From Okeania sp. SIO3I5 (GTDB taxonomy: Bacteria; Cyanobacteriota; Cyanobacteriia; Cyanobacteriales; Microcoleaceae), in assembly GCF_010672085.1 (NCBI RefSeq), contig NZ_JAAHHT010000060.1:1-43140 (forward strand): 43,140 nt of DNA. Reading direction: 5' to 3'. Each line of letters starts with the position of its first letter. The first letter of the stretch is position 1. Positions 1-25,002 of the stretch are shown here, piece by piece. A model generated the notes under the pieces. That model saw only the letters and a program-made list of their open reading frames with translations, searched no databases and had not been told where the DNA came from. The position numbers were made by a program, and so were the translations under genes.

Positions 1-1587
1 GTGGCGATCGCTTTCTTTTTAATATGTCTATTATTTAATCTGCACCGCTATTATAGTTTTTACGCCTCTTACGACCAGGGTATATTCAACCAAGTTTTTT
101 GGAATAGTATGCACGGTCGTTTTTTTCAAAGTTCCCTCTCTTCAGCTCTTTCCACAAATGTAGTCCACCAAGGCCAAGTTTCAGAAGTATACTATCACCG
201 CTTAGGCCAACATTTTACTCCTGCTCTTTTGCTCTGGTTGCCAATATATGCCCTATTTCCATCTCCTGCTACTTTGACAATCTTACAAGTGACATTAGTC
301 ACTGCTGCGGGTTTAGTTTTATATATTCTAGCTAGACAATATCTCCAACCACAGTTATCGGCCATGATTAGTGTTAGTTTCTATGGAGCTAATGCAGTAA
401 TCGGACCTACCCTAGCAAATTTCCATGATATTTGTCAAATACCTCTGTTTGTATTTAGCTTACTACTGGCAATGGAAAAACGCTGGTGGTCTCTATTTTG
501 GATTTTGGCAATATTAATTTTGGCTGTCAGAGAGGATGCAGGAGTAGTATTGTTTGGGGTTGGGTTCTACCTAATTTTAAGTAAACGCTATCCCAAAATA
601 GGTTTAGCTGTCTGTACTCTCAGTTTTGCCTATATGGTTGCTCTGACAAATCTAATTATGCCGATATTTTCCGAAGACATTTCCCAGAGATTTATGATGG
701 AAAGATTTGGTCAATATGCGGAAGGAGACGAAGCTTCGACTTTGGAAATTATTTGGGGGATGATTAGCAACCCTTGGCGGTTAATAGGGGAAATTTTTAC
801 TCCTTTCTTTGGCACTATCAAATATTTATTAGGTCAATGGTTGCCGTTAGCATTTGTGCCTGCTGTTGCTCCTGCTGCTTGGATGATAGCAGGATTTCCT
901 TTACTGAAATTATTTTCTGCTCAGGGTTTGTCTGTACTGTCAATTACGATTCGCTACGCCATGACAGTGGTGCCTGGATTATTTTACGGTGCAATTTTAT
1001 GGTGGGGAAAAAGAGAATCAGATGTTGAAAATTCACAACTGCCATCACCAAAGTTTCGCCGTTTCTGGGTAGCTTGTATTTGCTTGTCACTATTTTTTAC
1101 ATTTACATCTAATCCTAATCGCACTTTTTATTTTTTAGTACCAGACTCAATACAACCTTGGGTTTATGTTCCCGCACACCAACAATGGCAGCACGTCGGT
1201 AAAATGCGACCATTGTTAGAGAAAATTCCTGATGATGCTAGCGTCGCAGCAACAACTTATATTATTCCACACTTATCAAGTCGTCGAGCAGTTTTGCGGT
1301 TTCCGAGGATGAAATTTAGAAATGATGCGAGAGAAGTGGAAAAAGTGCAATATATAATTGTTGACTTGTGGCGGTTGAATAGATATCGAGTCGCATTTAA
1401 GAGCGATCGGCAACGACTAGAAAAAATTGTACCTCGAATTGAAGAGCTTTATAAATCTGGTGAATATGGAATTACTGATTTTGCAGATGGTGTGATTTTG
1501 ATGCACAAAGGTGTTGTTTCTGATTTGGATGCTGTTGCTGCATGGGAAAATTTCAGGCGAGAAATTGATGAATTTTCTGATGAGTGA
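1..1587 (+). CDS. DUF2079 family membrane protein, 5' end cut by window
   Basis: Predicted polytopic inner-membrane protein of the DUF2079 family, whose function is unknown (some members resemble glycosyltransferase-like membrane enzymes). The frame is open from base 1, where a GTG happens to stand, so the true start is probably upstream. Visible are the family-type N-terminal block YASYDQGIFNQ (about residues 21-31), a soluble loop with YYHRLGQHFTPALLLW (about 65-80), and about eight to ten hydrophobic segments up to residue 375. A soluble C-terminal domain of about 150 residues follows. At 528 residues it is near full length. A degenerate copy of its 3' end lies about 10 kb away at 11612-11772. 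DUF2079 assignment is from recognised motifs; the biochemical role is not known. Confidence 0.75.
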   Translation: MAIAFFLICLLFNLHRYYSFYASYDQGIFNQVFWNSMHGRFFQSSLSSALSTNVVHQGQVSEVYYHRLGQHFTPALLLWLPIYALFPSPATLTILQVTLVTAAGLVLYILARQYLQPQLSAMISVSFYGANAVIGPTLANFHDICQIPLFVFSLLLAMEKRWWSLFWILAILILAVREDAGVVLFGVGFYLILSKRYPKIGLAVCTLSFAYMVALTNLIMPIFSEDISQRFMMERFGQYAEGDEASTLEIIWGMISNPWRLIGEIFTPFFGTIKYLLGQWLPLAFVPAVAPAAWMIAGFPLLKLFSAQGLSVLSITIRYAMTVVPGLFYGAILWWGKRESDVENSQLPSPKFRRFWVACICLSLFFTFTSNPNRTFYFLVPDSIQPWVYVPAHQQWQHVGKMRPLLEKIPDDASVAATTYIIPHLSSRRAVLRFPRMKFRNDAREVEKVQYIIVDLWRLNRYRVAFKSDRQRLEKIVPRIEELYKSGEYGITDFADGVILMHKGVVSDLDAVAAWENFRREIDEFSDE

Positions 1588-1636
1588 AATTGTAGGGGCG
1601 GATTTCATCAAAAACAATTTACATTATCAGGACTTA

Positions 1637-1982
1637 TATCATGTTCGGTTGAATACTTATAAATAATTATCAAGGAGTCAGGAGTCGTAGGGGATTTCCG
1701 GCCGTTTGCTTCGCATAACTATCGTTAACGGCCGTACAGGAGTCAGAATTTCTGGAGAAAGGAGTCAGGAGAAAAGTAGAAGTATAATATCTTTTCCCTA
1801 CTCTCAGCAGCTCAAATTTTAGGTAGTGGTGCATTGTAATGGTTGTGCATTTTCCCGATCTTTGTTAGGAAGCGCGGCAGTGGGAGCATCTTGCTCCCGT
1901 GCCAGATATTTCTTTCTCCTGTATACCATTACTATGCAGGACTACCAAATTTTATTTATAACTGATTATCCGAACATGATAC
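1637..1982. repeat. TA-flanked inverted-repeat element, copy 1 (MITE-like)
   Basis: Starts TATCATGTTCGGTTGAATAC and ends TTATCCGAACATGATAC, so the ends are imperfect inverted repeats, with a TA on each side (1635-1636 and 1983-1984). The inside holds GGAGTCA heptamers, a palindrome built on ACGGCCGT at about 1696-1735 and a short hairpin GGGAGCATCTTGCTCCC at 1882-1898. No transposase frame is present. It sits within a broken AGGACTTACGCAAG sequence: removing the element plus one TA restores that string. Confidence 0.7.
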
Positions 1983-2010
1983 TACGCAAGAACACTATAT
2001 ATAGTGTATA

Positions 2011-2493
2011 TCGCTAACCACTCACCCCTATTACTTAGATGAATTAGAACATCTGCTGGTCTATCGCTGTCAGAAAATTATGGAGCAGCAGGAATTTGTT
2101 CAGGGGTTAATATCAAATCCGGTTGAATAGTTATTGTATAGTTGGGAGTAGGGGAGTAGGGTAAAGACGTTGCATAAGGGCGTCCGTACGAGAGTAGGGG
2201 AGATTGAATACTGAAAATTATAGAATTATCAACATATACTATATAACCGGATTCTATATTATATAAAATTCGGTTATACAGTAATCGCATTCAAAAATCC
2301 TCAACTGAAATATGTGTTTGCTAGAAGCACGAATTTAAAAATTTATGCATTTTCATTCCTTTCTTACTCCGTACGGACGCCCTTATGCAACGTCCCTACC
2401 TCCTTACTCCTTACTCCTCAGTAATACAATAACTAATTACCCGGATTCTATATAACCTGTTTTCACTGGTGGCCTCAAACTAGAAATGCTTAA
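2011..2493 (+). pseudogene. C-terminal remnant of an IS630-like transposase, split by a MITE
   Basis: The frame from about 2014 reads PYYLDELEHLLVYRCQKIME, then QQEFVQGL, and is interrupted at 2110 by an inverted-repeat element. If that element and one TA are removed, the frame continues TCFHWWPQTRNA and stops at 2491-2493. The pattern LDELE..L..RC ... FVQGLT.FHWWP resembles the C-termini of cyanobacterial IS630-family transposases. Only about 40 residues survive and nothing recognisable remains upstream, so this is a dead fragment. The reconstruction is read directly; the family assignment is from memory of the family and is less sure. Confidence 0.55.
2110..2452. repeat. TA-flanked inverted-repeat element, copy 2 (composite)
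   Basis: The outer ends are ATATCAAATCCGGTTGAATA on the left and ATTACCCGGATTCTATA on the right, inverted and similar over about 28 bp, with TA at 2108-2109 and 2453-2454. The size (343 bp) is close to copy 1. A second internal end, ACCGGATTCTATATTA near 2250, suggests a nested or modular structure. The interior carries GGGAGTA-type repeats and the string ACGGACGCCCTTATGCAACG in both orientations. It interrupts the IS630-like remnant. Confidence 0.7.
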
Positions 2494-2677
2494 TCATCAC
2501 TAATCATCCCGACATGATATTAATTTGATTTTCAAATTATCCTTAAATCTTTCTAAAATGAGAAACCTAAAACCTTTAGTCAATCCCAACTAACAAAAAT
2601 TTTGGCAGAAGTCCCCAGCTAAAAATATGAGCGGGACACCGTTATATGAGGTGGTGAGAATTCCCAACTAGAAATTT

Positions 2678-2712
2678 AACTTCTGACTTCTGACTTCTGA
2701 CTTTTGACTTTT
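2678..2712. repeat. Heptamer array (CTTCTGA)n
   Basis: About four to five units of 7 bp, the last ones degenerate (CTTTTGA). The array begins three bases beyond the stop codon of the minus-strand gene that follows. Confidence 0.8.
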
Positions 2713-3147
2713 TCAAGCCGCTACATCGTTATTATCAAATAACTCAAAAATCTGCCGACAAAAATATTTCACTTTAGCAGCAGATTCTGTTGTTGGTTGA
2801 GTATTTCCCACAAAACGCCAGCCACCGACGGTTGATAATTTCCACTGTTCCCCATGATGATCGTAACCAGCAACTTCAACCCCTATTACACGACGATAAG
2901 CTTCAATTGGGTCTTGATAAAAGCGAATTTGCACTAATAGACAACGACTTTCCAAAGATCGGCTTCTACCAGGCAAATGAAAACCAATATCTATAGAATC
3001 TGGATCAACCAATTCTAAAGTATCTGGATCGTTCATCCAAGGCTTTAGATCGACCTTAACATCTGGAAACTGGGACTTAAATAAATTAACAATTGTAGCA
3101 ATCTTACTAACAAGTTCAAAGTTTTTGGCCTGTTCTGCAGCATTCAC
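2713..3147 (-). CDS. Conserved hypothetical protein, 144 aa
   Basis: I do not recognise the family. The product is a soluble 144-residue protein with no signal peptide or membrane segment. It starts MNAAEQAKNFELVSKIATIV, and the middle reads SIDIGFHLPGRSRSLESRCL followed by VQIRFY and VIGVEVAGYDHHGEQW, a beta-rich pattern with a C-terminal helix ending FDNNDVAA. The start has a usable ribosome-binding site (GAGGAGG, about 9 bases upstream on its strand). It stands alone; a heptamer array lies immediately beyond its stop codon. Confidence 0.7.
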   Translation of the reverse strand: MNAAEQAKNFELVSKIATIVNLFKSQFPDVKVDLKPWMNDPDTLELVDPDSIDIGFHLPGRSRSLESRCLLVQIRFYQDPIEAYRRVIGVEVAGYDHHGEQWKLSTVGGWRFVGNTQPTTESAAKVKYFCRQIFELFDNNDVAA

Positions 3148-3352
3148 TATAATGTATCCTCCTCAATGAAAAAATTCCAGATTACTAATTAATTAATTTA
3201 ACTACAGATAAAAAACTGTGATTATTTGGACAATTCATAATAACTTTAGATTCTTTACTAAAAAATTAAGTCTCAAGTCTCCTGCCTTTTTAAGACGATG
3301 AAAAAATCAACTTCAATATTTCGAACCTCTGACTTCAGTGTATTAATAACTA

Positions 3353-3484
3353 ATATCATGTCCGGTTAAATAGTTATAAATAAGGAAGGAGGAGTCAGGA
3401 GTCAGGAGTCAGGAGGGAAGAGGAGAGAGTTTGAATGTATAAGGAGGAAAAAGTTTTTTGAGCACTAATTATCCGGACATGATC
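3353..3484. repeat. TA-flanked inverted-repeat element, copy 3
   Basis: Starts ATATCATGTCCGGTTAAATA and ends CTAATTATCCGGACATGATC, flanked by TA at 3351-3352 and 3485-3486. The terminal 14 bases pair almost perfectly (ATCATGTCCGG). At 132 bp it is the smallest complete copy, and the centre is little more than GGAGTCA heptamers. Confidence 0.75.
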
Positions 3485-3589
3485 TAATAACTGATATAGC
3501 AGTCAAAGCAAAGGGAGCGGACAGTTCTAAATCCTGTTTGCGGAGCATTTCCCTATACGAAAAACCCTTTGATAGTCTCCTGTTCCCTG

Positions 3590-3784
3590 TTCCCTCTGTT
3601 GGTGCGCATTCCCTCTGTTGGTGCGCATTTCCTCTGTTGGTGCGCATTCCCTCTGTTGGTGCGCATTCCCTCTGTTGGTGCGCATTCCCTCTGTTGGTGC
3701 GCATTTCCTCTGTTGGTGCGCATTTCCTCTGTTGGTGCGCATTCCCTCTGTTGGTGCGCATTCCCTCTGTTGGTGCGCATTCCC
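3590..3784. repeat. 19-bp tandem array, ten copies
   Basis: Ten copies of GGTGCGCATTCCCTCTGTT, starting every 19 bases from 3601 to 3772, differing only by TTCCC or TTTCC. A related single unit (TTGGTGCGCGTTCCCTTGCG) occurs at about 12940. Because 19 is not a multiple of 3, all frames stay open over much of the array and give false reading frames on both strands. Confidence 0.9.
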
Positions 3785-4040
3785 TTGCGACTTTCCTCTT
3801 GCAGAGGAGCTTTGCTAACGTCGTCGCGGGGTCGCACCGCTTGCGACTTTCCTCTTGCAGAGGAGCTTTGCTTTTTCTTATCGGGAATGCTCCGCAAACA
3901 TGTCGCGCAGCGTTAGCGGAGCTTTGCGTCAGCAAAACGTCGTCGCGGGGTCGCACCGCTTGCGAGCTGTCGGCGACGCGGGGTCTGACGTTGCGTCTGT
4001 CGCCGACGCGGGATCGCACCGCTATTCCCTATTCCCGATT
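3785..4040. repeat. Cluster of GC-rich palindromic repeats (REP-like)
   Basis: A patchwork of short GC-rich units: GCGACTTTCCTCTTGCAGAG twice (3787 and 3843), GTCGTCGCGGGGTCGCACCG twice, GGAATGCTCCGCAAAC, and GTCGGCGACGCGGGGTC facing GTCGCCGACGCGGGATC. Pieces recur at 12950-12985, 34075-34125 and inside a gene at 35503-35524. The high GC contrasts with the AT-rich surroundings. No coding sequence is credible here. Confidence 0.75.
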
Positions 4041-4072
4041 CAAGTAGCGCTATAACTAATAACTGAAACGAT

Positions 4073-6436
4073 TTATTCTTGAGTAGACTCAGGTTCTTTA
4101 GGCAACAGCACCTTCGCCCGAAGAAACCGTAAACCACTTATTCCCTGTAAAGGTTCAATCAAACCAGTCTCAAATTTATCTTCCACCCAACCTTCACGAA
4201 CCAAATAACGGAAATACTGTTCATATTCCTCCCACTCTTCATCTGTAGAATAAACAACTGTCAACATTCCAGGTTGAGTAATGCGCTCTTTGGTTTCCTT
4301 ATCCACACCCTTATCAATACGCTTTTTCACAATTTCATAACGAATATCGTGAGTACCTTTCACATCAAATAATCTTTCCGTACTTTCATTGTGATAAATA
4401 TCAATCGTACCATTCTGGACTAATATCAGATGCACAACTCCTAATATTGGCTCCTCAGATTCAGCTTTCAAACGCAAGGCAGTTCGTGCACAATCACAAA
4501 TTGCCCGTAGTTGATCGTAACGTAAACTGCTAAGATGAAATTGATTAAATTTAGAGTTAATAGATTTACCCACATACATCATGTGATCTATGCCATCAGT
4601 AGCTTCCAAATCACAATGGTGAGGGAGAATAAGCTGCATCTGCGTTTGCCAGTTTTCCCAAGTATTTTGGAGGTGGTAGTTAATTTTGTACAACATCTGA
4701 TCATAGCGTTCTCGTGCTTGATATACGCCATGATGGATATTATCACAAGCTGCACGATAAGCTTCAACAGCAACTTTAATAGTATCTCCACATTTTTCAA
4801 AATAGTCAAAATATATCTCTAAACGGCAGCGTAGATATTCTAAAGCTGTAATTTCAGTATTCACTGAAACTCTTTTTTCTAGGGACTTAATATGTTCCAA
4901 CAAATCTTGTCGTAGTTGCTCACACAAAGCACTATCTTGTTTCTGGCAAACAGTTTCCACAATGGCTAAACCTAGGCGAAATTGAGCCAGAATATCACTT
5001 TGAATTGCCCGATTACGTTCTGTAGAAGAACCACGAATATCACAAATACCATAAAGGGGATAGACATTTTCAAAAACAATTGTTTCAGCAGGTAATCCCC
5101 AACGACGTCGTTCCGCTTCTTGCAAAAATCGCCATTCAACTGCGGGATGAATATTACGAATATTAGTAAACCGTTCTTGAATTGTTTGACGAACTGCGGT
5201 ACTAAAAGCAGGAATCAAGTCTTGGGCATTTTGATAATCTGAGACATTAAAGTTGCTAGGACGATTGCTCATTAATCCTGCTATTCCCAAAATTTCTGGC
5301 ATACCCGATCCCTCTTTTGGAGAAGCAGGTTTAATCACTAGGGGAATTAGCAGTAAAGAGCGGACTCCTTTTTGAAATAAATTTTGCTCGCACTCAGTTC
5401 GACAATTTGATTCAAGTTCGGTAATATTTTCAATTTGATTTGTTTTTGCACTTTTGAGGATCGGAGAATCCTGTAAACTCTGAGTAGAATATAGCTTGGG
5501 ATATTTTGCTCTCGTTAAAAATTCGCTGCCAATAAATAACTTGTATTGTTTTTCGCCTTCATTTCGCAGCAAAATCATATCATCTGCTCGAAATAGCGAT
5601 CGCAATAATTTGTCAATTGCCTTAAATTTATCTTGCTGCATTAATGACTCTGGTTCAACTAAAAGTTGGATTAGTTTTCGTTTTTGTTCTTTGAGAGTGA
5701 CATCTAACCCTTCGAGTAAAAGTAAACCTTCTATTTGGTAATTTTCTAATTTTAATTTTTGGGCTAATATTTCTACATTTCCAGGTTGTATCAACCAAGC
5801 TATTTCTTCAGACTTTGACATTGACTGAAAATTGAAATCTATAAACTCGTCTATTTTTTGGTCAACTCTTGTAACTTTTAGTTCCTGAGAACAAAACCAG
5901 AATTCTATATACTTTGGTTCTGAGTTTTTTAGGGAATTAACTGTTGATATGACTGAGGAATCTTGAAATTGTAGATTTGCTGTATCTATCTCATAAAGTT
6001 GTTTGAGTACCCAGTGCAGAATTTGTAAGCGGTAAAGTTTTTTTAGTTCTGTATTATCCCAATCACTAAATAATTCGTTTAGCTTAATATTTTGCTGTGT
6101 TTCTATTGCACCCCGCTCTATACCCATTAGTTCGTAAAATGGATGACTAGCATATTTAAAACTCAAGCTTCCTGGTTCTATAATTGCTGTTAATATTTTG
6201 CTGTGCAGTGGAAAATTTTCTAATCGCTCTGTTATTTGTTTCCAAATTTTTAGTCGATCGATTTGATTATCGTGTTGAGATAGTTGAGATACTAAAGCTT
6301 GCGAGAGTTCTTCTATTTTTATTTGTTCGCTTTGTTCGCTGTCTTGATAGTTTGTAGTTGCAGTAGTCTGCTCTGGCAAAGCTTTTGTATCATATTTATG
6401 ATTTTTATCTGTGCTTTTTTGTTTGGAAATCTGCAT
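4073..6436 (-). CDS. Large GAF-type protein of unknown function
   Basis: Soluble protein of 787 residues from the chosen ATG; a GTG 66 bases upstream would give 809, but the extra residues are basic and low in complexity, and AGGTG precedes the ATG. The N-terminal part is charged and variable. About residues 80-110 (HSKILTAIIEPGSLSFKYAS) look PAS-like, and about 285-430 form a GAF-like sensor module. A block PLYGICDIRGSS lies at about 460-471, with WRFLQEAERRRWGL before it; I know this block from GAF-containing proteins of cyanobacteria and Bacteroidetes. The C-terminal half is helical and ends in an alpha/beta domain with GVVHLILVQNGTIDIYHNES. No histidine-kinase or cyclase core is visible. 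It may be a cytosolic signalling protein; the ligand is unknown. Confidence 0.75.
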   Translation of the reverse strand: MQISKQKSTDKNHKYDTKALPEQTTATTNYQDSEQSEQIKIEELSQALVSQLSQHDNQIDRLKIWKQITERLENFPLHSKILTAIIEPGSLSFKYASHPFYELMGIERGAIETQQNIKLNELFSDWDNTELKKLYRLQILHWVLKQLYEIDTANLQFQDSSVISTVNSLKNSEPKYIEFWFCSQELKVTRVDQKIDEFIDFNFQSMSKSEEIAWLIQPGNVEILAQKLKLENYQIEGLLLLEGLDVTLKEQKRKLIQLLVEPESLMQQDKFKAIDKLLRSLFRADDMILLRNEGEKQYKLFIGSEFLTRAKYPKLYSTQSLQDSPILKSAKTNQIENITELESNCRTECEQNLFQKGVRSLLLIPLVIKPASPKEGSGMPEILGIAGLMSNRPSNFNVSDYQNAQDLIPAFSTAVRQTIQERFTNIRNIHPAVEWRFLQEAERRRWGLPAETIVFENVYPLYGICDIRGSSTERNRAIQSDILAQFRLGLAIVETVCQKQDSALCEQLRQDLLEHIKSLEKRVSVNTEITALEYLRCRLEIYFDYFEKCGDTIKVAVEAYRAACDNIHHGVYQARERYDQMLYKINYHLQNTWENWQTQMQLILPHHCDLEATDGIDHMMYVGKSINSKFNQFHLSSLRYDQLRAICDCARTALRLKAESEEPILGVVHLILVQNGTIDIYHNESTERLFDVKGTHDIRYEIVKKRIDKGVDKETKERITQPGMLTVVYSTDEEWEEYEQYFRYLVREGWVEDKFETGLIEPLQGISGLRFLRAKVLLPKEPESTQE

Positions 6437-15930: not shown

Positions 15931-16830
15931 ATGGAAATCGAAGAGCGTCAAGAGTTACTTGAAGAAGCAATAGAACTTGTTCGTTTCTGTGATATTCACC
16001 TGGGAGATGAGATTTCAGAACAAGAAGCTGATCCCCTGAAACAACAAGCTATTGCATTATTAGAAAGTCTAAATAAAGAGCGGGTAGAATTTTCGCCTAA
16101 ACTGACTGTATATCCATTAAAACCTAAAGATTTCAAGATTGAAGAGCAACAGCTTTCACATGAAATTAAGGTGGGGATGCGCCACCACAATTTTTATAAA
16201 GTTGACATTCCGATTACTCTGAAGTCTGCACCGGACTGGGAATTTAGCAGTTTGTTTTGTGATGTCACTTTCTGCCCTGATGAAAAGGACAGCGAACAGG
16301 TGCATCTATTGCCAATTATCCATGACATTTTTCCCTCAGATGAATGGCAGGAAATTTTGAGTTTTGAAGAGTCTCTGACGTTAGGGTTGGATGAAAATTT
16401 AGCTTTTCGAGCTGAAGCAGAAAAAATAGAAGGGAAATGGCAGGAACTAGGGGCTGAAGCTCAAGCCAAGCTAGTTGTTCAAGTTGGGGGAGGAATCAAA
16501 CTGGCGTTTGGTCCTTTTAATTATCAAATTCGCAAGGCGCAAATTAAAGGTCGAGGGCGGGGAAATGTCAAAGCTTCTTGGGAACTTCAAGGAACTAAAT
16601 ATGTCAACGAACAGGAGGTCATATTGGGAGTGATTTTAAAGGTTCCCAAGTCAAGAAATAAGCCTATTAATGTAATTGGAGCTTTGGAAGTGCAGCATGA
16701 TTTTCAACTTTGGAGTGCAGAGTTGTTGCATTTTAGGCAATATTTTCAAGGAGTTCATCAGCAATTTTTTGAGGGAGGAGCAGCTATTTCTAAAACTCAA
16801 GCTTGGCAGGATATTACTCGGTTGACTTAG
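15931..16830 (+). CDS. Unknown 299-aa protein, first gene of CHAT/STAND cluster
   Basis: I do not recognise this protein. Residues 1-60 are an acidic helical region (EERQELLEEAIELV). The rest is beta-rich, with EIKVGMRHHNFYKVDIPITL (about 79-98), SLFCDVTFCPDEKDSEQ, and VVQVGGGIKLAFGPFNYQIR (about 182-201). No signal peptide, membrane segment or catalytic motif is evident. AAGAGGGC is a fair ribosome-binding site eight bases before the ATG. It lies 118 bases upstream of the CHAT protease gene on the same strand, so it is likely co-transcribed. Candidates are a protease substrate, pore former or adaptor; the sequence does not decide. Confidence 0.7.
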   Translation: MEIEERQELLEEAIELVRFCDIHLGDEISEQEADPLKQQAIALLESLNKERVEFSPKLTVYPLKPKDFKIEEQQLSHEIKVGMRHHNFYKVDIPITLKSAPDWEFSSLFCDVTFCPDEKDSEQVHLLPIIHDIFPSDEWQEILSFEESLTLGLDENLAFRAEAEKIEGKWQELGAEAQAKLVVQVGGGIKLAFGPFNYQIRKAQIKGRGRGNVKASWELQGTKYVNEQEVILGVILKVPKSRNKPINVIGALEVQHDFQLWSAELLHFRQYFQGVHQQFFEGGAAISKTQAWQDITRLT

Positions 16831-16948: not shown

Positions 16949-19033
16949 TTGAGTCGGTTTGTTAACTATACTCTTACTATCAGAAATGATGGGACAATTG
17001 TTCCTCAAATCGACGGACAAGAATCCGAAAATGGTCGGTTTCAGGAAATTTTTCTACCTGATATCAGACATGAACTTAGTTTACTGAATAACTACAATTC
17101 ACGAGAACAGTTTACTTTTTTAGGCAAAAAACTTTTTCAAGCGTTACTTCAACCTGTAAATTCTAGCTTTTATGGACAAGTTTGGAGTCGGTACATCAAT
17201 GAGTCTGAAAATACTGACCTTCGCATGAGAATAGTTTTTGAAAGTATTGAGAGAGAAACGGAATTAGCTAACCAAATTATTAACTTACCTTGGGAGTTTC
17301 TTTGCTATGCTCGCGATAACAATACCTTTCTAGGAACTCATCCCCGTGTTGCCCTATCCTGTAGCTATAAAAGTTGCTTCAACAGTCCTCTGCCGGGATA
17401 TACTAATCGAGAATTTCCCTTGCGGGTGCTGTTTGTTCACGGTCATCCCTCAACGCTCCCTGATGTTGGTTTTGTGAAGCTTGTGCAGAGAATCTTAACT
17501 GAATTAGATGAAACAGTTGAGGTTAGGGAACTGAAAGACCCAGAACCAAATAAGCTTGCTGAAGAACTATCTAAGAAACCTCACGTTTTACATTTTTTAG
17601 GACATGGTAAACCTGGGGCATTAGCTCTAGGTGATTTATCAAATGGAGAGCCTTCCTGGCTTGATGATCAATCGCTATCTGATTATCTGCGGGGAGGAGG
17701 CGTGAAATTAGTTGTCCTACAAGCTTGTGAGGGTGCATCCCCATCTCAGGAACTAGCCTTTACGGGAACCGCAGCGCAGTTAGTCAAGAGTCATGTTCCA
17801 GCCGTGATAGCTATTCGGTATCCAATCTCGCAATCCCTGGCTTGGAATTTTGTCAGAACTCTCTATGGCAAATTAGTGGCAGGGGAACCCGTCGATGTAG
17901 CCGTGCAAAGCGGACGCGAACAGTTAGCAATAGGAAATAAATCTCATGCTTGTCGTGATTTTGGGGCGCCTGTGCTTTGGATGCGTCTACGCGATGGATT
18001 ACTATTTCCTACTCCCACACAAGAAGAAACTGGACAGAGTAATAGTGAGTTACAAAAAACAATTTGGGGCCAGATTGTTATCAACGGAACTTTAACAGCA
18101 GACGATCAGATTCAGTATGAAGACAAGGTTGTTACGGTAGAAAAATATCTTAACCTCATAAATGAGCATCTAGACACTAACTTCAGATTAAAAATAGTTG
18201 AAAGAGGAAGTGTCAAACTTACGTTAGAGGGATCTCAGGAAGATTTCAATCTTCTAGATGAGTTTTTCAAGGATGGTAACTTCAGTAAAACTTTGGATAT
18301 AACGATTGAATCGTTGACTATTGACATTCCTAAAAAGGAACAAGAAGACCGACCCGCTAAACCTATAGATAATAGCAGGTACTATAATCAGCATGACTTA
18401 AAACAAAAACTTTTAGAGTTAGAAGATTTATTAGTCAAAAAGCAATGGAAGCAAGCAGACAAAAAAACATCTGAAATAGTGCAAGCATTTGCTGGTAAAA
18501 AACGAGAAGAAGATTGGGAAGCACAAAATGTCCTTCGCCAAATCGATCAATTGTGGCAAACATATCAGGACTTAAAACAAAAACTTTTAGAGTTAGAAAA
18601 TTTATTAGCAGAATATCAATGGAAGAAAGCGGATGATAAAACAACTGAAATTATGCTAGAATTTGCTGGTAAAAAACGAGAAGAAGATTGGGGACTACAA
18701 AATATTCAGAACTTTTCTTCCGATATTCTTTGCGAAATTGATCGACTATGGCAAGACAATAGCAATGAAATGTTTGGTTTTAATAGACAAGTATTAAAGT
18801 GGCAAGAAAATCCCGAAAAGTGGCAAGAAAATAACAAAAAATTCGCTGAAGAGCTCGGGTGGTATGATCAGAATAAAAACAAATGGTTATCATGGGAAGA
18901 TGAAGTTTTTAGAAATAATGTAAAAAGAAGGGATATTGAAGGTCTTCTTCCAACACCTCCACCATTTAAAAAGGATAGGCAACATAGTGTTGACCTGATG
19001 CCTCAGCTTGCAGATAAGATGAAACAGTGCTAG
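16949..19033 (+). CDS. CHAT-domain caspase-like protease fused to GUN4-type domains
   Basis: Predicted cytosolic cysteine protease of 694 residues. Residues about 100-350 are a CHAT domain: INLPWEFL, LRVLFVHGHP, the catalytic His in VLHFLGHGKPG (H219) and the catalytic Cys in VVLQACEGA (C260). Residues 370-460 form a small domain with VKLTLEGSQEDFNLLDEFF, resembling adaptor-type effector-associated domains. The C-terminus has a 58-residue tandem duplication (483-540 and 541-598; WKxADxKTxEI, AGKKREEDW) whose second copy continues as a full GUN4-like fold (FGFNRQVLKWQE, LGWYDQNKNKWLSW). GUN4 binds chlorophyll precursors. Whether this one still binds a tetrapyrrole is unknown. The start is TTG, supported by GGGAGGA eight bases upstream. 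Confidence 0.85.
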   Translation: MSRFVNYTLTIRNDGTIVPQIDGQESENGRFQEIFLPDIRHELSLLNNYNSREQFTFLGKKLFQALLQPVNSSFYGQVWSRYINESENTDLRMRIVFESIERETELANQIINLPWEFLCYARDNNTFLGTHPRVALSCSYKSCFNSPLPGYTNREFPLRVLFVHGHPSTLPDVGFVKLVQRILTELDETVEVRELKDPEPNKLAEELSKKPHVLHFLGHGKPGALALGDLSNGEPSWLDDQSLSDYLRGGGVKLVVLQACEGASPSQELAFTGTAAQLVKSHVPAVIAIRYPISQSLAWNFVRTLYGKLVAGEPVDVAVQSGREQLAIGNKSHACRDFGAPVLWMRLRDGLLFPTPTQEETGQSNSELQKTIWGQIVINGTLTADDQIQYEDKVVTVEKYLNLINEHLDTNFRLKIVERGSVKLTLEGSQEDFNLLDEFFKDGNFSKTLDITIESLTIDIPKKEQEDRPAKPIDNSRYYNQHDLKQKLLELEDLLVKKQWKQADKKTSEIVQAFAGKKREEDWEAQNVLRQIDQLWQTYQDLKQKLLELENLLAEYQWKKADDKTTEIMLEFAGKKREEDWGLQNIQNFSSDILCEIDRLWQDNSNEMFGFNRQVLKWQENPEKWQENNKKFAEELGWYDQNKNKWLSWEDEVFRNNVKRRDIEGLLPTPPPFKKDRQHSVDLMPQLADKMKQC

Positions 19034-19139: not shown

Positions 19140-21116
19140 ATGTCAACTTTTTGTATAGGACGCACTAAAGAAGAAAAACAATTCAAAGAAGTATTAAATA
19201 CTCTGATTAGTCCAGATTTTGACAGCTATAACTCTAATCATCAGCGTATTTTTCTGTTTGATGGATATGGTGGAATAGGAAAAACAACTTTACTAAAAAA
19301 ACTACAAGAAATTACTGAGGAATACCAATATGCAGAGCAAATTAATTCTATTTTTATAGATTGGGAAAAGCAAAAAAATAAAGATATTAGATTACGGCTA
19401 GGAACTGAAAATATTCAACCTATTACTATACTGGATATATTATTTGAAAAATTTTCTACTGATTTAGAGGAATACTGCTTTAGTAAGTATAAGCAGAAAA
19501 AAGAATTACTACAAGATACTCTTAAAAAAATTGAAGAAGCTGAAGAAAGCAGCAGAGAATTGACACAACTTAATTTAGACAAAGATGCATGGGATATTTA
19601 TCATCAACCTGAAGAAAAATTAGCACCACAGTTAAGTAATGGAATTAATCAATTAGTTGAGCAGGAAGGTAAACCCTTAGTTATCTTTTTTGATACTTAT
19701 GAAATTATAGATTCACAAAAATGTGACGATGCTGTGCGTCGTGTTATAAAAGGGACTAACGATACAATTGTTTGGGTAATTGCTGGCAGATTCAATCTAG
19801 CAAAAAAAACTTGGAGAAATGAAGAGGTTCAGTTAGCTCTACTAGATAAGTTAAAAGATTCAAATCCAGATATTGTGAAAGCAGCAATTGAATCATTAGC
19901 TTTCTATGATCGAGAGGTTGAAGTTGAGCAACTTATAAAATTTCTTTGGCCACTAGAGAATAAGCATCCAGATCGTTATATTCGTGAAGCAGCAGTGCGT
20001 GAGTTGGGAAATCTGATTGATTCTGATGTTAGTGAAAAAGTGTTATTGCAGGCAGTTGAACCAATCGTTCAAACTCTACGAAAAGATGATATTAGTAAGG
20101 TACGAAATGCTGCAAAAAAATCACTGGGACAAATTTATTATGCACTAGAGGAAAAAGTAAATTTATCTTTTCCACCTCCAGAATTTACCCTAGCTGAACG
20201 AACCTGGAGACGTGAAGATAGTAAGGAAGATAAACTTAGTAAGTTTTATCAGGAAATATTACCAATTGAAGAAGAACTTCTTTCTAATAAATCACAAAAG
20301 GAAAAGGTACAGTTACTCACCGAGTTTCTTGGTGAGAACAATCAAGACCTAGATATTCGAGCTGCTGCTGCAAGAGAGTTGGGAGAAATAGGTTCACCTA
20401 CTGCGGATAGTGCAATTCCAAAATTGATTAATGCTTTAGACTATAGTAATAAGAATAGCGATCGCTATCTACGACAAGAAGCAGCAGAAGCACTCAGTAA
20501 ATTAACGCCTACGATAGAGATTATCAATGCTTTGAATACAGCAAACCGACAGGATGTTATTAGTAATGTACGCAATGCAGCAGAAGCAGCTTTAAAAAGT
20601 ATTGCTGCTCCAAATAATTCTATAGGCAAACAAGCGCAACAATACCTTGACTTGATGAATCCAGACAAGCTACAACTACAAGAAACAAGTGTAGAAAATT
20701 TAATCAAAAAGCTAGAGGACGAAGACTCAAGTGTGGTTGCTGCTGTAGCAAATGTACTCGGTAAAATTGGGGATTTCTCTGCTTTGGAATCCTTACTTAG
20801 CAAGCTTGAAGACATAAAATATGGAGATCGGGTTGCTCGTCAGTTTGTGGTTACAGCATTAGGAAATTTACAATCAAAACTCTCAAAAGAAGGTCAAAAT
20901 GCTAATTTAGAAATAGTCATTGATACTTTAATCAATATGTGGCGCAACGATGCAATTAGTAGTGTGCGAGATGCTGTTGAACCTGCTATCCAAAAGATAT
21001 ATGAAACTACTCGCCATCCAACTGCTTATAAAGCATTAAAGCGATATCCTGATTATAAAGATCAAAAAGTTGAAGACTCTTATGAAAAGTTTTTCAGCGA
21101 CTTTCCCCTGAATTAA
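19140..21116 (+). CDS. STAND NTPase front half joined to HEAT repeats
   Basis: 658 residues. The N-terminus opens FCIGRTKEEKQF. A P-loop GYGGIGKTT (42-50) and a Walker B LVIFFDTYE (180-188) follow, with IVWVIAGRFNL (210-220) as the sensor strand. After residue about 227 the usual STAND lid and winged helix are missing and HEAT-like repeats begin abruptly (LALLDKLKDSNPDIVKAAIE). HEAT units continue to about residue 625 (for example DIRAAAARELGEIG, VVAAVANVLGKIG). AGGAG precedes the ATG. The lid that would complete this NTPase appears in the fifth gene of the cluster. It may sense through the HEAT surface; whether the truncated NTPase hydrolyses ATP is unclear. Confidence 0.8.
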   Translation: MSTFCIGRTKEEKQFKEVLNTLISPDFDSYNSNHQRIFLFDGYGGIGKTTLLKKLQEITEEYQYAEQINSIFIDWEKQKNKDIRLRLGTENIQPITILDILFEKFSTDLEEYCFSKYKQKKELLQDTLKKIEEAEESSRELTQLNLDKDAWDIYHQPEEKLAPQLSNGINQLVEQEGKPLVIFFDTYEIIDSQKCDDAVRRVIKGTNDTIVWVIAGRFNLAKKTWRNEEVQLALLDKLKDSNPDIVKAAIESLAFYDREVEVEQLIKFLWPLENKHPDRYIREAAVRELGNLIDSDVSEKVLLQAVEPIVQTLRKDDISKVRNAAKKSLGQIYYALEEKVNLSFPPPEFTLAERTWRREDSKEDKLSKFYQEILPIEEELLSNKSQKEKVQLLTEFLGENNQDLDIRAAAARELGEIGSPTADSAIPKLINALDYSNKNSDRYLRQEAAEALSKLTPTIEIINALNTANRQDVISNVRNAAEAALKSIAAPNNSIGKQAQQYLDLMNPDKLQLQETSVENLIKKLEDEDSSVVAAVANVLGKIGDFSALESLLSKLEDIKYGDRVARQFVVTALGNLQSKLSKEGQNANLEIVIDTLINMWRNDAISSVRDAVEPAIQKIYETTRHPTAYKALKRYPDYKDQKVEDSYEKFFSDFPLN

Positions 21117-21169
21117 TTCAAAAAGCCGAAATTCACTTCATTTCAACAAATTACTAGAGGTAAAACCCA

Positions 21170-21973
21170 ATGAACTTTCCGGTTAAAGCAAGAGAAGGCA
21201 AAGCTTACAAAACACCAGATGGTAAAACAGTTACTGTATCGGACACAATGAAGAAAATCTCCAACCCTAATACCCAAAGTGAAGCATTAGGGGATTTAGG
21301 AGTTACCATCAATAATTATCAGTTAAAGATTGAATTTTCTGAGACTGGCAACCCTTATGCAGAGCCAGATGGCGATCGCACAAAAGTATCTGATGCTTCA
21401 ACCCAAACTGTTACGGTAGAGCTAATACTTGACGATCCTCCTCCATCTACTCTTAAACTTCAAACTCAACTTTCTCCATTTACACAAGATAGTGTCAACT
21501 TTTTCGGTTCGGTGACATTAGAAACTCCAGATGGAGAAGTGCGCAGCATTCCGATGACAGGCCGCGGTACGGTTGCTTTGGAGGGCAAAGAGAGTGGTGA
21601 TATTCACGCTGGAATTGTTACTGGGGGAACTTGTGCTTGTTTTCAACAAAGAGCAGCTTTGGTTTTAGCTGTGGCAGCATCATCTGGTGCCAAGAGTGAA
21701 CAACTCAATGAAATTGGAGAGAAATTACACACTCTCAATGATAATTTTCATGGACGGGGAGAAATTTTGGATTATACAGTTGAAGCAGCTAAAACTTCCC
21801 AAAATAATATGCCAAGCTATACAAAGTTTATGGCAGATCGTTATTCAGAAAGTCAGCGTTCAACCCTTCTTCAAAGTGTTATTGAGACAGGAAAACCTAA
21901 TGCTGTTTTTTATGAAAAAGTTAGAACTAAGATGACAGAAGAAGAGTTGGAAATAGATCGAGAAACTGAATAA
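21170..21973 (+). CDS. Unknown 267-aa protein, fourth gene of CHAT/STAND cluster
   Basis: Not recognised. Residues 1-140 look beta-rich (GKAYKTPDGKTVTVSD, TVTVELILDDPPPST, FFGSVTLETPDGEVRSIPMT), perhaps one or two sandwich domains. A turn with two cysteines, TGGTCACFQQ (C155 and C157), leads into a hydrophobic helix RAALVLAVAASSG (161-173), then charged helices with FHGRGEILDYTVEAAKT. No signal peptide. The helix is too short and small-residue-rich to be called a membrane span with confidence. GAGGT precedes the ATG, and the gene follows the HEAT protein by 53 bases. A cysteine-dependent activity, lipidation or membrane insertion is possible but not shown. Confidence 0.7.
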   Translation: MNFPVKAREGKAYKTPDGKTVTVSDTMKKISNPNTQSEALGDLGVTINNYQLKIEFSETGNPYAEPDGDRTKVSDASTQTVTVELILDDPPPSTLKLQTQLSPFTQDSVNFFGSVTLETPDGEVRSIPMTGRGTVALEGKESGDIHAGIVTGGTCACFQQRAALVLAVAASSGAKSEQLNEIGEKLHTLNDNFHGRGEILDYTVEAAKTSQNNMPSYTKFMADRYSESQRSTLLQSVIETGKPNAVFYEKVRTKMTEEELEIDRETE

Positions 21974-22006
21974 TTTAGCTGTAGTGATAATTGGGTGAAT
22001 AAACAC

Positions 22007-22107
22007 AGGACTTACGCGGGCAAACCTATAAACCCGGTTTTTTCGTAAATTTCTATTCTTAAAAACAAGGATTTATCCGAAAAACTAGGTTTCTTTGTGT
22101 AAGTCCT
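22007..22107. repeat. AGGACTTACGC hairpin repeat, copy C, inside the cluster
   Basis: About 101 bp from AGGACTTACGCGGGCAAACC to TTCTTTGTGTAAGTCCT, lying between the fourth and fifth genes, 33 bases after the first stop and 45 bases before the next ATG. As RNA it would fold into a long hairpin and could reduce read-through or stabilise the upstream part of the transcript. Confidence 0.8.
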
Positions 22108-22152
22108 AAAACATATCGGTACAAGTCTTTATTTAATGGAGAAAAACAACTT

Positions 22153-25002
22153 ATGGTTACTCAAGCAGCTTCAAACCAAAATATTTCTGATGCTGGATTA
22201 GAAGCAGAGTTTTTTATTCTAAAGAAACGAATTTTTGAGGATAGACCAAATTTACTTCGAGGAACTTCAGAAAATAATATAACTGAGGAAGAGCTAGACT
22301 CTTTTTCTACTCTTAATGAGGCAGTTAAGAAGTACAACTATTTACTACTTTTGGGTGAACCGGGAGCTGGAAAAACAGTTGCTTTACGAGAGTTTGCGAA
22401 AGAGATAGATGTAGAAAGCAATAGTCTGATTATATTTGTATCTATTCAAAAATGGAAATACCCAGAAAATATTGTTACGTTTTTAGCAAAAGAGATGGGT
22501 AAAACAGAAGAATCTTTCCGTGAAGAAATTCAAACAAAAGAAGTATTATTACTTTTGGATGGATTAGATGAATTACCTTCTAATGTATCAAAAATGTCAG
22601 AAAGTAGAGATGCAGAAATTATAGACTATCGGGTTCAGTTTCTCTTGAAGTTATCAGAGTTTTTAGGAGATTTTAACCCGCATAATATTTCAATTGTGAT
22701 GACTTGTCGTTATAGAGATTATGAGGAAATATTACTCAAAAATCAGGAAGAACAAAATAGATTTCAGTACATTTTTCATGGGTTAGTTGTTCTCAATCGT
22801 TTAAAGAATGATGAAATTCAAGAATACCTAAACGAGATTAATCAAAGAAAGCTGAATAATTCTTTAAATAGTGAGTTAATCTGGAAAACTATTCAAGTTA
22901 ATAAAGATGTGTTGGAATTAATTCGGACACCATTTTTGCTCTATGTTCTGTCATCTACTTTAGTGTCGATTTTTGAACAAAATCCGAATGTTATTTCTCA
23001 AGAGATAGAGCAAATTAAAGCAGTCCGTAATTTGGAGAAATTGCTCGATAAATTTGTTATACAGGAGTACAGAAGAGAGCTAAAGAAACAAAAAAAATTA
23101 TTATGGTCGCTCAATGAAGTTAAAGAGCTACTCGGAAAAATTGCTATACTAATGATGAGCGATCGCGAGCCAGATGATAATGAGATTTTGCCTGAACACT
23201 TCGATAAAATACTTCAAAATCGACCCATTGAAGAATTTATTAAATTGAGTAAAAACCTATATTTATTATCTGAAGAAAAAGCTACTAATCATAACAAAAC
23301 CACAACTAAGTTTCGGCATTTAACACTGCGTGATTATTTTGCTTTTGACTATGGTTCCAAATTTTTTGATCGAGAGGATAACTTAATCCAAAAATCTGAA
23401 AAGTCTCTATTAGCAATAGAAGCAGAACAAGTCGTAAAAGCGATTGGAAAAATAAAAAAAATGCAAGTAGTTAAACTATTAACTAAATTACTTTATCATT
23501 CCAATCCAGATGTATGCTATGAAGCTATAAAGTCTTTAGGGGAGTTGAGATCGGTAGTATATTTTGAAGGCTATAAAAGCTATTTTCCACCCGATCAAGT
23601 TGTCAATAAATCTCTTGATGAATTTGATGAATCCCTTATTAAAGAATATTTTAGTAAAAAGGAGGATTTGGAAATCAATGATAATGATGCTGAAAAAATA
23701 TATAAGTACAGTGGTGGTAATGTTTGGATAATAGAGCAAATAGCTACTACACTTGGCAGAAGTACAGCTTCTTTAGATGAAATATTAGGTGGTGATTCTA
23801 TTCCCACACGCATCAAATGTAGAAACCCTAAAGAACAAATTTTTGCAACAACTGTTGAACGTTTGTTACGTTATTGTGAAAACAAGGAAGACAAACGCAC
23901 GGTTTACTTACTTGCCATAGCACATCGTCCAAATCGTGAATTTCTGGAATTCATGTTGGGTTGTGAAAATTTAGATGCTAAATTGCAGGAATTAGACAAT
24001 AACTACCCATTTATATTGCCAGAAAAACAACGGTTAGAGGAGATACATCAGAAGTTTACTAAACAATACTTACTCTCACTGAGAAATGAAAGTAATCTAA
24101 ACAAGTATGAAAGTGAATCTCAAAAAATAGCTAAAAATCTTAATCGTCAGGCGGCAGATTATTTTCGGAATTATATAGAAACCTTAACTCTAAAACTAAC
24201 AACAGCAAAACAGCGTTTTAACCACGAAGAATTTCCCGATTTTCTAATTAATCGGTTTTATCATAGGTTCTGGTTAAGTAGTAAAGATAATGTAAAGCGT
24301 ATATGGAATGATATGATTCCTTATTTAGTAGAGGGGTGGCATTATGATGAGAATTTTGCCCTTGAACTTTTAGAAGTTGCTGATGAGTTTTATCCAGAAA
24401 TTACTGATGAGTTTGATAAAGACTATGAACTTTTCCAGCTTTTCAGAGTTGTTTTAAAGGAAGGAAAAGATGAGCCTTTTCTTGTGAAAAAATTGGTGGA
24501 GATATTAGATAAGACGAAGGAAAAAGCTGAATGGGTAGCGATCACACTGCTTAAGCATTGTTATTTACAGTATAAAAATAAGCAATACTCAGAAGTATTA
24601 AAAAGATGTGAGCAAGCTAAACTATGCATACCTGAAGAAGCAGAAGACTTAAGGAGGTTATTTGACGAATTATCGAGTAAATCATGGAACGATCAGAATA
24701 AAGATAATCCTAAGGTAAATCCAATAGAAAAAGAATCTAGTCCACCAATAAGTGAACCTGATTCTACAACAAGTAAACCTATAGAAAACCAAACAAATCC
24801 ACCAATAAGTGAACCTGATTCTAATGGTTTAACTCCTACTAATTCTCCACTAGAAATCTCCAGAAAAAGTTCTGAAATCTTTATAGTAATAATTGTAGGA
24901 GTGATATTAGCATTTTTACTATTTGCACCACTAGAAAGGATAATTATTATTTTTTCATTTGGCGTTGCCGTTTTTTTTATTTCAAACAAAGAGAGTAAAT
25001 AA
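22153..25002 (+). CDS. NACHT NTPase with HEAT segment, STAND lid and C-terminal membrane hairpin
   Basis: 949 residues. NACHT NTPase: P-loop GEPGAGKT (68-75), Walker B LLLLDGLDE (132-140), sensor MTCRYRDY (183-190), and the winged-helix end FRHLTLRDYFAF (387-398). A short HEAT segment (about 420-466, LLYHSNPDVCYEAIKSLGEL) stops abruptly and passes into VVYFEGYKSYFPP, then LIKEYF, DAEKIYKYSGGNVWIIEQIA. These last motifs belong to the lid of a different STAND NTPase, the one whose front half is the third gene. TPR-like helices follow to about 860, then a Ser/Pro linker with ISEPDS twice, and two hydrophobic segments (about 909-925 and 928-944). GGAG precedes the ATG. Likely membrane-attached through the C-terminus. 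Confidence 0.82.
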   Translation: MVTQAASNQNISDAGLEAEFFILKKRIFEDRPNLLRGTSENNITEEELDSFSTLNEAVKKYNYLLLLGEPGAGKTVALREFAKEIDVESNSLIIFVSIQKWKYPENIVTFLAKEMGKTEESFREEIQTKEVLLLLDGLDELPSNVSKMSESRDAEIIDYRVQFLLKLSEFLGDFNPHNISIVMTCRYRDYEEILLKNQEEQNRFQYIFHGLVVLNRLKNDEIQEYLNEINQRKLNNSLNSELIWKTIQVNKDVLELIRTPFLLYVLSSTLVSIFEQNPNVISQEIEQIKAVRNLEKLLDKFVIQEYRRELKKQKKLLWSLNEVKELLGKIAILMMSDREPDDNEILPEHFDKILQNRPIEEFIKLSKNLYLLSEEKATNHNKTTTKFRHLTLRDYFAFDYGSKFFDREDNLIQKSEKSLLAIEAEQVVKAIGKIKKMQVVKLLTKLLYHSNPDVCYEAIKSLGELRSVVYFEGYKSYFPPDQVVNKSLDEFDESLIKEYFSKKEDLEINDNDAEKIYKYSGGNVWIIEQIATTLGRSTASLDEILGGDSIPTRIKCRNPKEQIFATTVERLLRYCENKEDKRTVYLLAIAHRPNREFLEFMLGCENLDAKLQELDNNYPFILPEKQRLEEIHQKFTKQYLLSLRNESNLNKYESESQKIAKNLNRQAADYFRNYIETLTLKLTTAKQRFNHEEFPDFLINRFYHRFWLSSKDNVKRIWNDMIPYLVEGWHYDENFALELLEVADEFYPEITDEFDKDYELFQLFRVVLKEGKDEPFLVKKLVEILDKTKEKAEWVAITLLKHCYLQYKNKQYSEVLKRCEQAKLCIPEEAEDLRRLFDELSSKSWNDQNKDNPKVNPIEKESSPPISEPDSTTSKPIENQTNPPISEPDSNGLTPTNSPLEISRKSSEIFIVIIVGVILAFLLFAPLERIIIIFSFGVAVFFISNKESK

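Follow-up and report, generated by a model that had tools for sequence, protein, structure and literature searches.

The window, by which we mean the whole stretch of DNA that was analysed (43,140 nucleotides of Okeania sp. SIO3I5, contig NZ_JAAHHT010000060.1), belongs to a genome of 10.5 Mb distributed over 562 contigs; among named genomes, Okeania sp. SIO2F4 is the closest to it at this locus. Between positions 15931 and 25002, five genes lie in one orientation and encode a 299-aa protein, a protein combining CHAT, TRADD-N-like and GUN4 parts (gene 2), and the products of genes 3, 4 and 5 (table 1). In gene 2, CHAT and GUN4 exceed their Pfam cut-offs and TRADD-like_N stays below it (20.3 bits for a cut-off of 23.7). 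Genes 3 and 5 are each composed of two halves, hereafter N1 and C2 for gene 3, and N2 and C1 for gene 5. The gap between genes 4 and 5 holds a MITE-like element with 44 matches in the genome, its own copy counted.

Table 1. Positions of the genes, gene halves and repeat element discussed in the text.
Feature	Position	Strand	Description and basis
Gene 2	16949..19033	+	CHAT (caspase-like), TRADD-N-like and GUN4 parts (Pfam); upstream neighbour of gene 3
Gene 3, whole	19140-21116	+	658 aa, N1 then C2
N1 (gene 3 front half, residues 1-225)	19140..19814	+	STAND-type P-loop core; Walker A GYGGIGKT, Walker B VIFFDTYE, end AGRFNLAKKTW; aligned with the N-terminal part of intact STAND proteins
C2 (gene 3 back half, residues 226-658)	19815..21116	+	HEAT repeats, starting RNEEV; HEAT_2 at 6.8e-29
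Gene 4	21170..21973	+	267 aa, without known family; flanked by the two chimeric genes
MITE-like inverted-repeat element	21995..22120	+	in the gap between genes 4 and 5; 22-nt arms at 22007-22028 and 22086-22107; away from both joints
Gene 5, whole	22153-25002	+	949 aa, N2 then C1
N2 (gene 5 front half, residues 1-467)	22153..23553	+	NACHT NTPase (GEPGAGKT, LLLLDGLDEL), winged-helix-like part, about one HEAT repeat, end GELRS; NACHT and HEAT_2 matches
C1 (gene 5 back half, residues 468-949)	23554..25002	+	STAND lid-like part without P-loop, then C-terminal hydrophobic membrane segment; sequence searches and alignment

In STAND switches, the nucleotide is bound between a P-loop core and a lid carrying a G-x-P-like motif. 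A previous reading of the sequence alone had proposed that genes 3 and 5 exchanged tails, gene 3 passing from a STAND front half to HEAT repeats, and gene 5 from a NACHT domain and the beginning of a HEAT region to the lid expected behind the front half of gene 3. Both architectures held on inspection. In gene 3, Pfam places HEAT after the core, with a joint refined by alignment to W225|R226 (approx. 19814|19815); in gene 5, the HEAT_2 match scores 26.7 bits (cut-off 27.7) and ends at residue 467, i.e. at profile position 60 of 88, and the joint lies at S467|V468 (approx. 23553|23554). The reading frame is kept at both joints, and the positions first proposed, near 19820 and 23550, fall within about two codons of the refined sites. 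The beginning of C2 is marked by an R-N pair invariant in six sequences.

The core of gene 3 is weakly recognized in the window (AAA_16, 19.5 bits; NB-ARC, 15.8 bits, both below the Pfam cut-off) and more clearly in a second genome carrying the pair, G360, where AAA_16 reaches 35.3 bits for a cut-off of 32.6; Walker A and Walker B are both present in the seven gene-3 rows out of seven. The NACHT domain of gene 5 lies well above its threshold (37.0 bits for 26.7), with intact Walker motifs. A lid and winged helix were looked for within the chain of gene 3, which proved to be HEAT from residue 226 on, and neither the lid profile searched against unfused gene 3 nor the core profile searched against gene 5 gave a match (ORFs of at least 150 aa in the loci compared, E-values up to 1); as judged by sequence profiles, a hidden lid in gene 3 appears to be excluded. 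AlphaFold2, run on two-row alignments, returned poor models (mean pLDDT of 48.0 and 36.7), and searches of solved structures gave best E-values of 0.016 for N1, 0.25 for C1 and 0.21 for the intact parent. In gene 5, the motif which we take to be the G-x-P-like one reads SRGIPLVV in G360, GIP being also found in three further chimeric sequences (L076, L078 and L116), and it is degenerate in the group of the window, where it has lost the proline (SGGNVW). A hydrophobic C-terminal segment is common to all eight C1 tails examined, and the gene 5 protein is likely to be membrane-bound through this tail. Compared with the antiphage NACHT family EruA, gene 5 scored 22.2 bits for a required 1000, and PADLOC yielded weak partial matches only.

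The sequence-only reading implied that N1 and C1 were once parts of a single STAND protein, and such single chains, joining gene 3 residues 1-225 to gene 5 from residue 468 onward, do exist. When N1 was used as a single query, six of 386 cyanobacterial genomes matched at E up to 0.001; besides the window, only G360 (3e-49) and G193 (2e-12) gave strong matches, the latter being the best non-chimeric one. The G193 protein is a 1174-aa ORF in which N1 is directly followed by C1, then by TPR repeats. The same protein was retrieved at 3e-25 by C1 of the window used as a single query, which matched four of 10 chosen genomes. These two single-sequence searches are free of circularity. A C1 profile including the G193 protein matched 14 of the 386 genomes, and an N1 profile applied to 38 genomes of the family of G193 matched 15, nine of them at full length. 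In all nine full-length relatives, which belong to the genus of G193, C1 begins six residues after N1 according to profiles built from chimeras only, and C2 or N2 gave no match at E 0.01 in the stretch examined (up to 798 residues); frame lengths of 565 and 692 aa were recorded for two of the nine. The three intact relatives in which a TPR tail was looked for, L014, L032 and L015, all have one. More distant proteins (L032, L022, L023 and L024) likewise have the core before the lid, with weaker scores.

The joint region of the intact proteins reads, for instance, AGRANLADSYRLSQDYFRGYRDEF, and the two halves of G360 read AGRSNLADNIW (gene 3) and GVYFRGYRQSF (gene 5) at the joint. The tryptophan that ends the front half of gene 3 is absent at this place in the nine nearest intact proteins; it fits L032 and L015, since both have a W before the lid (AGRQKLHQDSW and AGRQELDKNYW, respectively). 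For L015, the N1 profile matched, the C1 profile did not fall below E 0.01, and the lid is assigned by alignment alone. Sequences matched by N1 only (L009, L036) or by C1 only (L021, L033) were left uncounted as intact proteins. A further candidate, in G397 (L117, 10084-12237), was rejected as an intact parent: stop codons lie just upstream of its C1-TPR frame, and no N1 was found there by profile or by three-frame reading. This frame is probably a broken gene of the intact type.

Both joints recur in seven loci from five genomes and two families: the window, L016, two loci of G390 (L079 and L078), L013 in G360, and two loci of G389. In this count, L016 and L080 of G387, which are equal in length and reversed, are taken as one contig; the first locus of G389 pairs gene 3, at the end of L077, with gene 5 of L116 on the assumption that they form one locus, and the second is the fused L076. 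The order gene 3, gene 4, gene 5 is found in the window, L016, L079, L013 and L078, that is, in the five loci that a contig spans, although L078 is damaged, with gene 4 partly masked and gene 5 split into two overlapping frames. Outside these seven loci, G320 retains a partial gene 5 at a contig edge (L031, 38-928), with a stop inside the N2 match; neither gene 3 nor gene 4 was detected in this genome. Within the genus scan, N1 was present in four of seven genomes. C1 occurred in five of 50 genomes of the family of the window, all within the genus, and in two of 20 genomes of the family of G360, one of them being G397, which lacks N1. Plasmid searches (tblastn) with genes 3 and 5 and scans of viral contigs with three profiles were without result.

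This recurrence bears on the simplest alternative, namely that the chimeras of the window result from misassembly. Fragmentation of the genome into its 562 contigs is the point in favour of such an artefact; however, other assemblies show the same joints at 28-85% identity. With both joints present in seven loci from five genomes, assembly error is excluded, and the chance that the window is an artefact is negligible. In addition, profiles made from chimeras only match the same intact proteins, core before lid, and this, together with the recurrence of the joints elsewhere, confirms at the sequence level that the domain order of both genes is beyond chance. Conversely, the picture that would have spoken against a tail exchange, both architectures widespread and without intact parents, is not the one obtained: the chimeric architecture does recur, yet intact STAND proteins exist. 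We regard the tail-swap rearrangement itself as probable.

The evidence for the second parent, a NACHT-HEAT protein made of N2 and C2, is of a different kind. Used as a single query, N2 matched 91 of the 386 genomes, the matches listed covering mostly the NACHT part; none of eight N2-like NACHT proteins tested contained HEAT at E 0.01, and five of the eight end in NCH2. A WH-HEAT profile matched 18 of 292 genomes, through NACHT-WH or HEAT alone. Generic single chains of the NACHT-WH-HEAT type do exist (L083, L101); the specific chain joining gene 5 residues 1-467 to gene 3 residues 226-658 was not found, the loci examined giving generic NACHT or HEAT matches. Like these cyanobacterial NACHT proteins, N2 has a NACHT domain, a winged-helix-like part and a HEAT start; unlike them, its HEAT run ends after about one repeat and gives way to a STAND lid. 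The phase of the HEAT repeats was examined across a virtual N2|C2 joint, with shifted or linker-inserted joins as controls. HEAT_2 scored best at the natural join, with 54.1 bits in G360 (controls: 45.6, 39.4 and 51.8) and 47.4 bits in the window (controls: 41.5, 35.0 and 44.8), which gives moderate backing to a common origin of N2 and C2. The NACHT-HEAT parent of the earlier reading thus stands in part, through the phase of its repeats and the existence of generic NACHT-WH-HEAT chains, and its specific intact form was not recovered.

It is also conceivable that C2 and N2 come from different proteins, the insert having consisted of a HEAT gene, of gene 4 and of a NACHT-HEAT gene and having by chance been fused in frame at either end. 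The missing intact N2-C2 protein would agree with such a scenario, as would the small effect of an 8-residue linker at the virtual joint, which lowers the HEAT_2 score by just 2-3 bits. On the other hand, the break between N2 and C2 coincides with a repeat boundary, HEAT_2 is best at the natural join, and two in-frame gene fusions would be required instead of one break inside a gene. A separate origin of the two halves seems unlikely.

The quarters of the pair have diverged to a comparable degree, C1 the furthest, and four trees, one for each quarter, all set the group of the window, L016 and L079 apart. In the N1 trees, the intact G193 group stands beside the chimera of G360, with weak support (0.83 in one tree and 32 of 100 in another). 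The combined N1+C1 tree, in which four of the nine G193-type proteins were used and G320 was left out, places the chimeras on one side of a branch with a support of 44, and C1 alone gives 43. Chimeras as one clade were rejected in no case (AU p of 0.39 for N1, 0.49 for C1 and 0.50 for the combined tree). The identical joints argue for a single origin of the chimeras; the trees neither prove nor deny it.

These trees also bear on polarity, as the chimera could, partly or wholly, be the older form, from which the G193-type intact proteins lost the insert again. The position of the G193 group in the N1 trees is compatible with this reversal, and so is the spread of chimeras over two families. However, the C1 and combined trees group the intact proteins (with supports of only 43 and 44), and the intact order of core and lid is found in three divergent groups, i.e. 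the genus of G193, L032 with L015, and L022 to L024. Core followed by lid is also the usual STAND order. A reversed polarity appears highly improbable.

In the history that we favour, the starting point would be an ancestral STAND ATPase gene (N1 core and C1 lid), still intact in other cyanobacteria, into which a block made of C2, gene 4 and N2 would have been inserted in frame. This block would comprise gene 4 and a NACHT-HEAT gene broken within its HEAT part, and would have entered as one event, for example as a circle or a piece of tandem array. This would have produced the chimeras N1-C2 and N2-C1, which remain linked to gene 4 within a conflict-type locus of CHAT, EAD and GUN4 proteins. 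We infer that the intact form is ancestral, that N2 and C2 derive from one protein and that entry took a single event; the insertion of the NACHT-HEAT and gene-4 block is read as old. By reasoning, one crossover between a circle (N2-C2 with gene 4) and the STAND gene would produce N1-C2, gene 4 and N2-C1 in the same orientation, and a linear piece of tandem array would give the same order; a single inversion of opposed genes would leave the chimeras oppositely oriented and a second step would be needed. Integration of a circle, as initially suggested, is one single-step route to the co-oriented order, and no repeat was found to mark both joints. Taken as a whole, this explanation is somewhat more probable than its negation.

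What the separated halves do is less certain. The proteins of genes 3 and 5 would bind each other, the gene-3 P-loop core being completed by the gene-5 lid and the HEAT parts of both proteins stacking in the complex. Such a complex, with a STAND site completed in trans and stacked HEAT, would be the most economical functional reading, and the membrane-anchored two-protein STAND switch so formed would regulate the neighbouring caspase-like (CHAT) or EAD protein; GUN4 may act as the sensor of tetrapyrroles, a role mentioned in PMC7159879. We nevertheless consider such assembly of a single STAND switch from two proteins to be doubtful, and the degenerate lid motif in the group of the window counts against it. 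A fuller version, an interlaced NLR-like switch with the STAND site completed in trans, a complete NACHT ATPase of its own in gene 5, a shared HEAT solenoid and neither protein working alone, seems rather unlikely.

Alternatively, the same rearrangement could have left two independent proteins, gene 3 being a lid-less P-loop-HEAT protein and gene 5 a complete NACHT switch in which a vestigial second lid would serve as linker or membrane adaptor. The NACHT domain of N2, with its intact motifs, and the degenerate lid of the group of the window are in line with independence. Moreover, C1 is the least conserved quarter between the window and G360 (28% identity, versus 38% for N1, 39% for N2 and 41% for C2), and the gene 5 remnant of G320 occurs without detectable gene 3. 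Still, genes 3, 4 and 5 are adjacent in all five loci spanned by a contig, and the sole natural fusion dropped the NACHT P-loop and retained N1 and C1. This fusion, L076 of G389 (226-4893), is a single ORF of 1555 aa starting near the contig end and composed of N1, C2, the WH-HEAT part of N2 and C1; neither gene 4 nor the P-loop part of NACHT is present in it, and it keeps both the Walker A and B motifs of N1 and a GIP lid motif. By reuniting core and lid in one chain, L076 suggests that the two proteins work together, although it could possibly have arisen by chance deletion. Independent chimeras are, on balance, a serious possibility that falls a little short of even chances. If the interlaced switch were real, L076 would represent a lineage that restored the split ATPase to one chain.

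Fusion and fission of domains are common; here, two regulatory NTPase genes look like reciprocal tail swaps that have remained adjacent. As one parent type is still intact in relatives, it can be tested directly whether reassociation of the separated parts in a complex is what kept the pair functional. Completion in trans, if true, would mean that a STAND switch tolerates the separation of its core from its lid, and that obligate heteromeric switches of the immune type can arise through nested in-frame insertion. Mainly within the openly accessible literature, and as far as the consulted portions of it go, nothing on point was found for split or tail-swapped STAND pairs, reciprocal exchange, nested insertion or bacterial NLRs. 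The nearest known systems share parts of the locus. According to the available portion of PMC8195603, some bacteria encode TRADD-N proteins beside TPR-tailed STAND proteins from the AP-ATPase clade, and the C-terminal parts of TRADD-N proteins include GUN4 and HEAT. N1 and C1 resemble the core and lid of such a STAND protein, the intact relatives have its TPR repeats, and gene 2 is TRADD-N-like with GUN4; in contrast to what that portion describes, core and lid are here divided between two proteins and separated by HEAT and NACHT-HEAT parts, and gene 5 encodes a hydrophobic tail segment.

The surroundings of the pair are also similar to the EAD/CHAT/GUN4 conflict systems of multicellular bacteria (PMC7159879, PMC8195603), as far as the available parts of both sources describe them, since CHAT, EAD1, TRADD-N-like, GUN4 and sub-cut-off EAD6 domains adjoin the chimeric pair; the split STAND pair and gene 4 are absent from the descriptions in those parts. 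In all six chimeric loci with upstream sequence (window, L016, L079, L077, L078 and L013), the gene immediately before gene 3 encodes a GUN4 protein. Among the neighbours, CHAT, GUN4 and EAD1 exceed their cut-offs, TRADD-like_N does so in L079 only, and EAD6 remains below. In placing an effector or adaptor gene next to that of a STAND NTPase, the locus has the layout of the EAD/TRADD-N/CHAT/GUN4 conflict type.

Gene 4 gave no family above cut-off in Pfam. It was present in two of the 386 cyanobacterial genomes, both carriers of the chimeras, with 56% identity in G360, and tblastn searches of plasmids and phages were without result. Its family displays conserved HAG, GG-CA-FQ-R and HGR stretches and, in the sets searched, occurs only beside the chimeric pair.

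The neighbours upstream of gene 3 vary between loci. In the second chimeric lineage, EAD1 is encoded near GUN4 in L013 (9830-10714) and L077 (1829-5314), and sub-cut-off EAD6 in L077 and L078 (6929-7714); in L013, EAD1 and GUN4 form a single chain. Finally, when L079 (14710-17007) is compared by eye with the window (16949-19033), the CHAT part is very different, the TRADD-N-like part near-identical and GUN4 a separate gene, which suggests replacement of the effector next to a retained adaptor.
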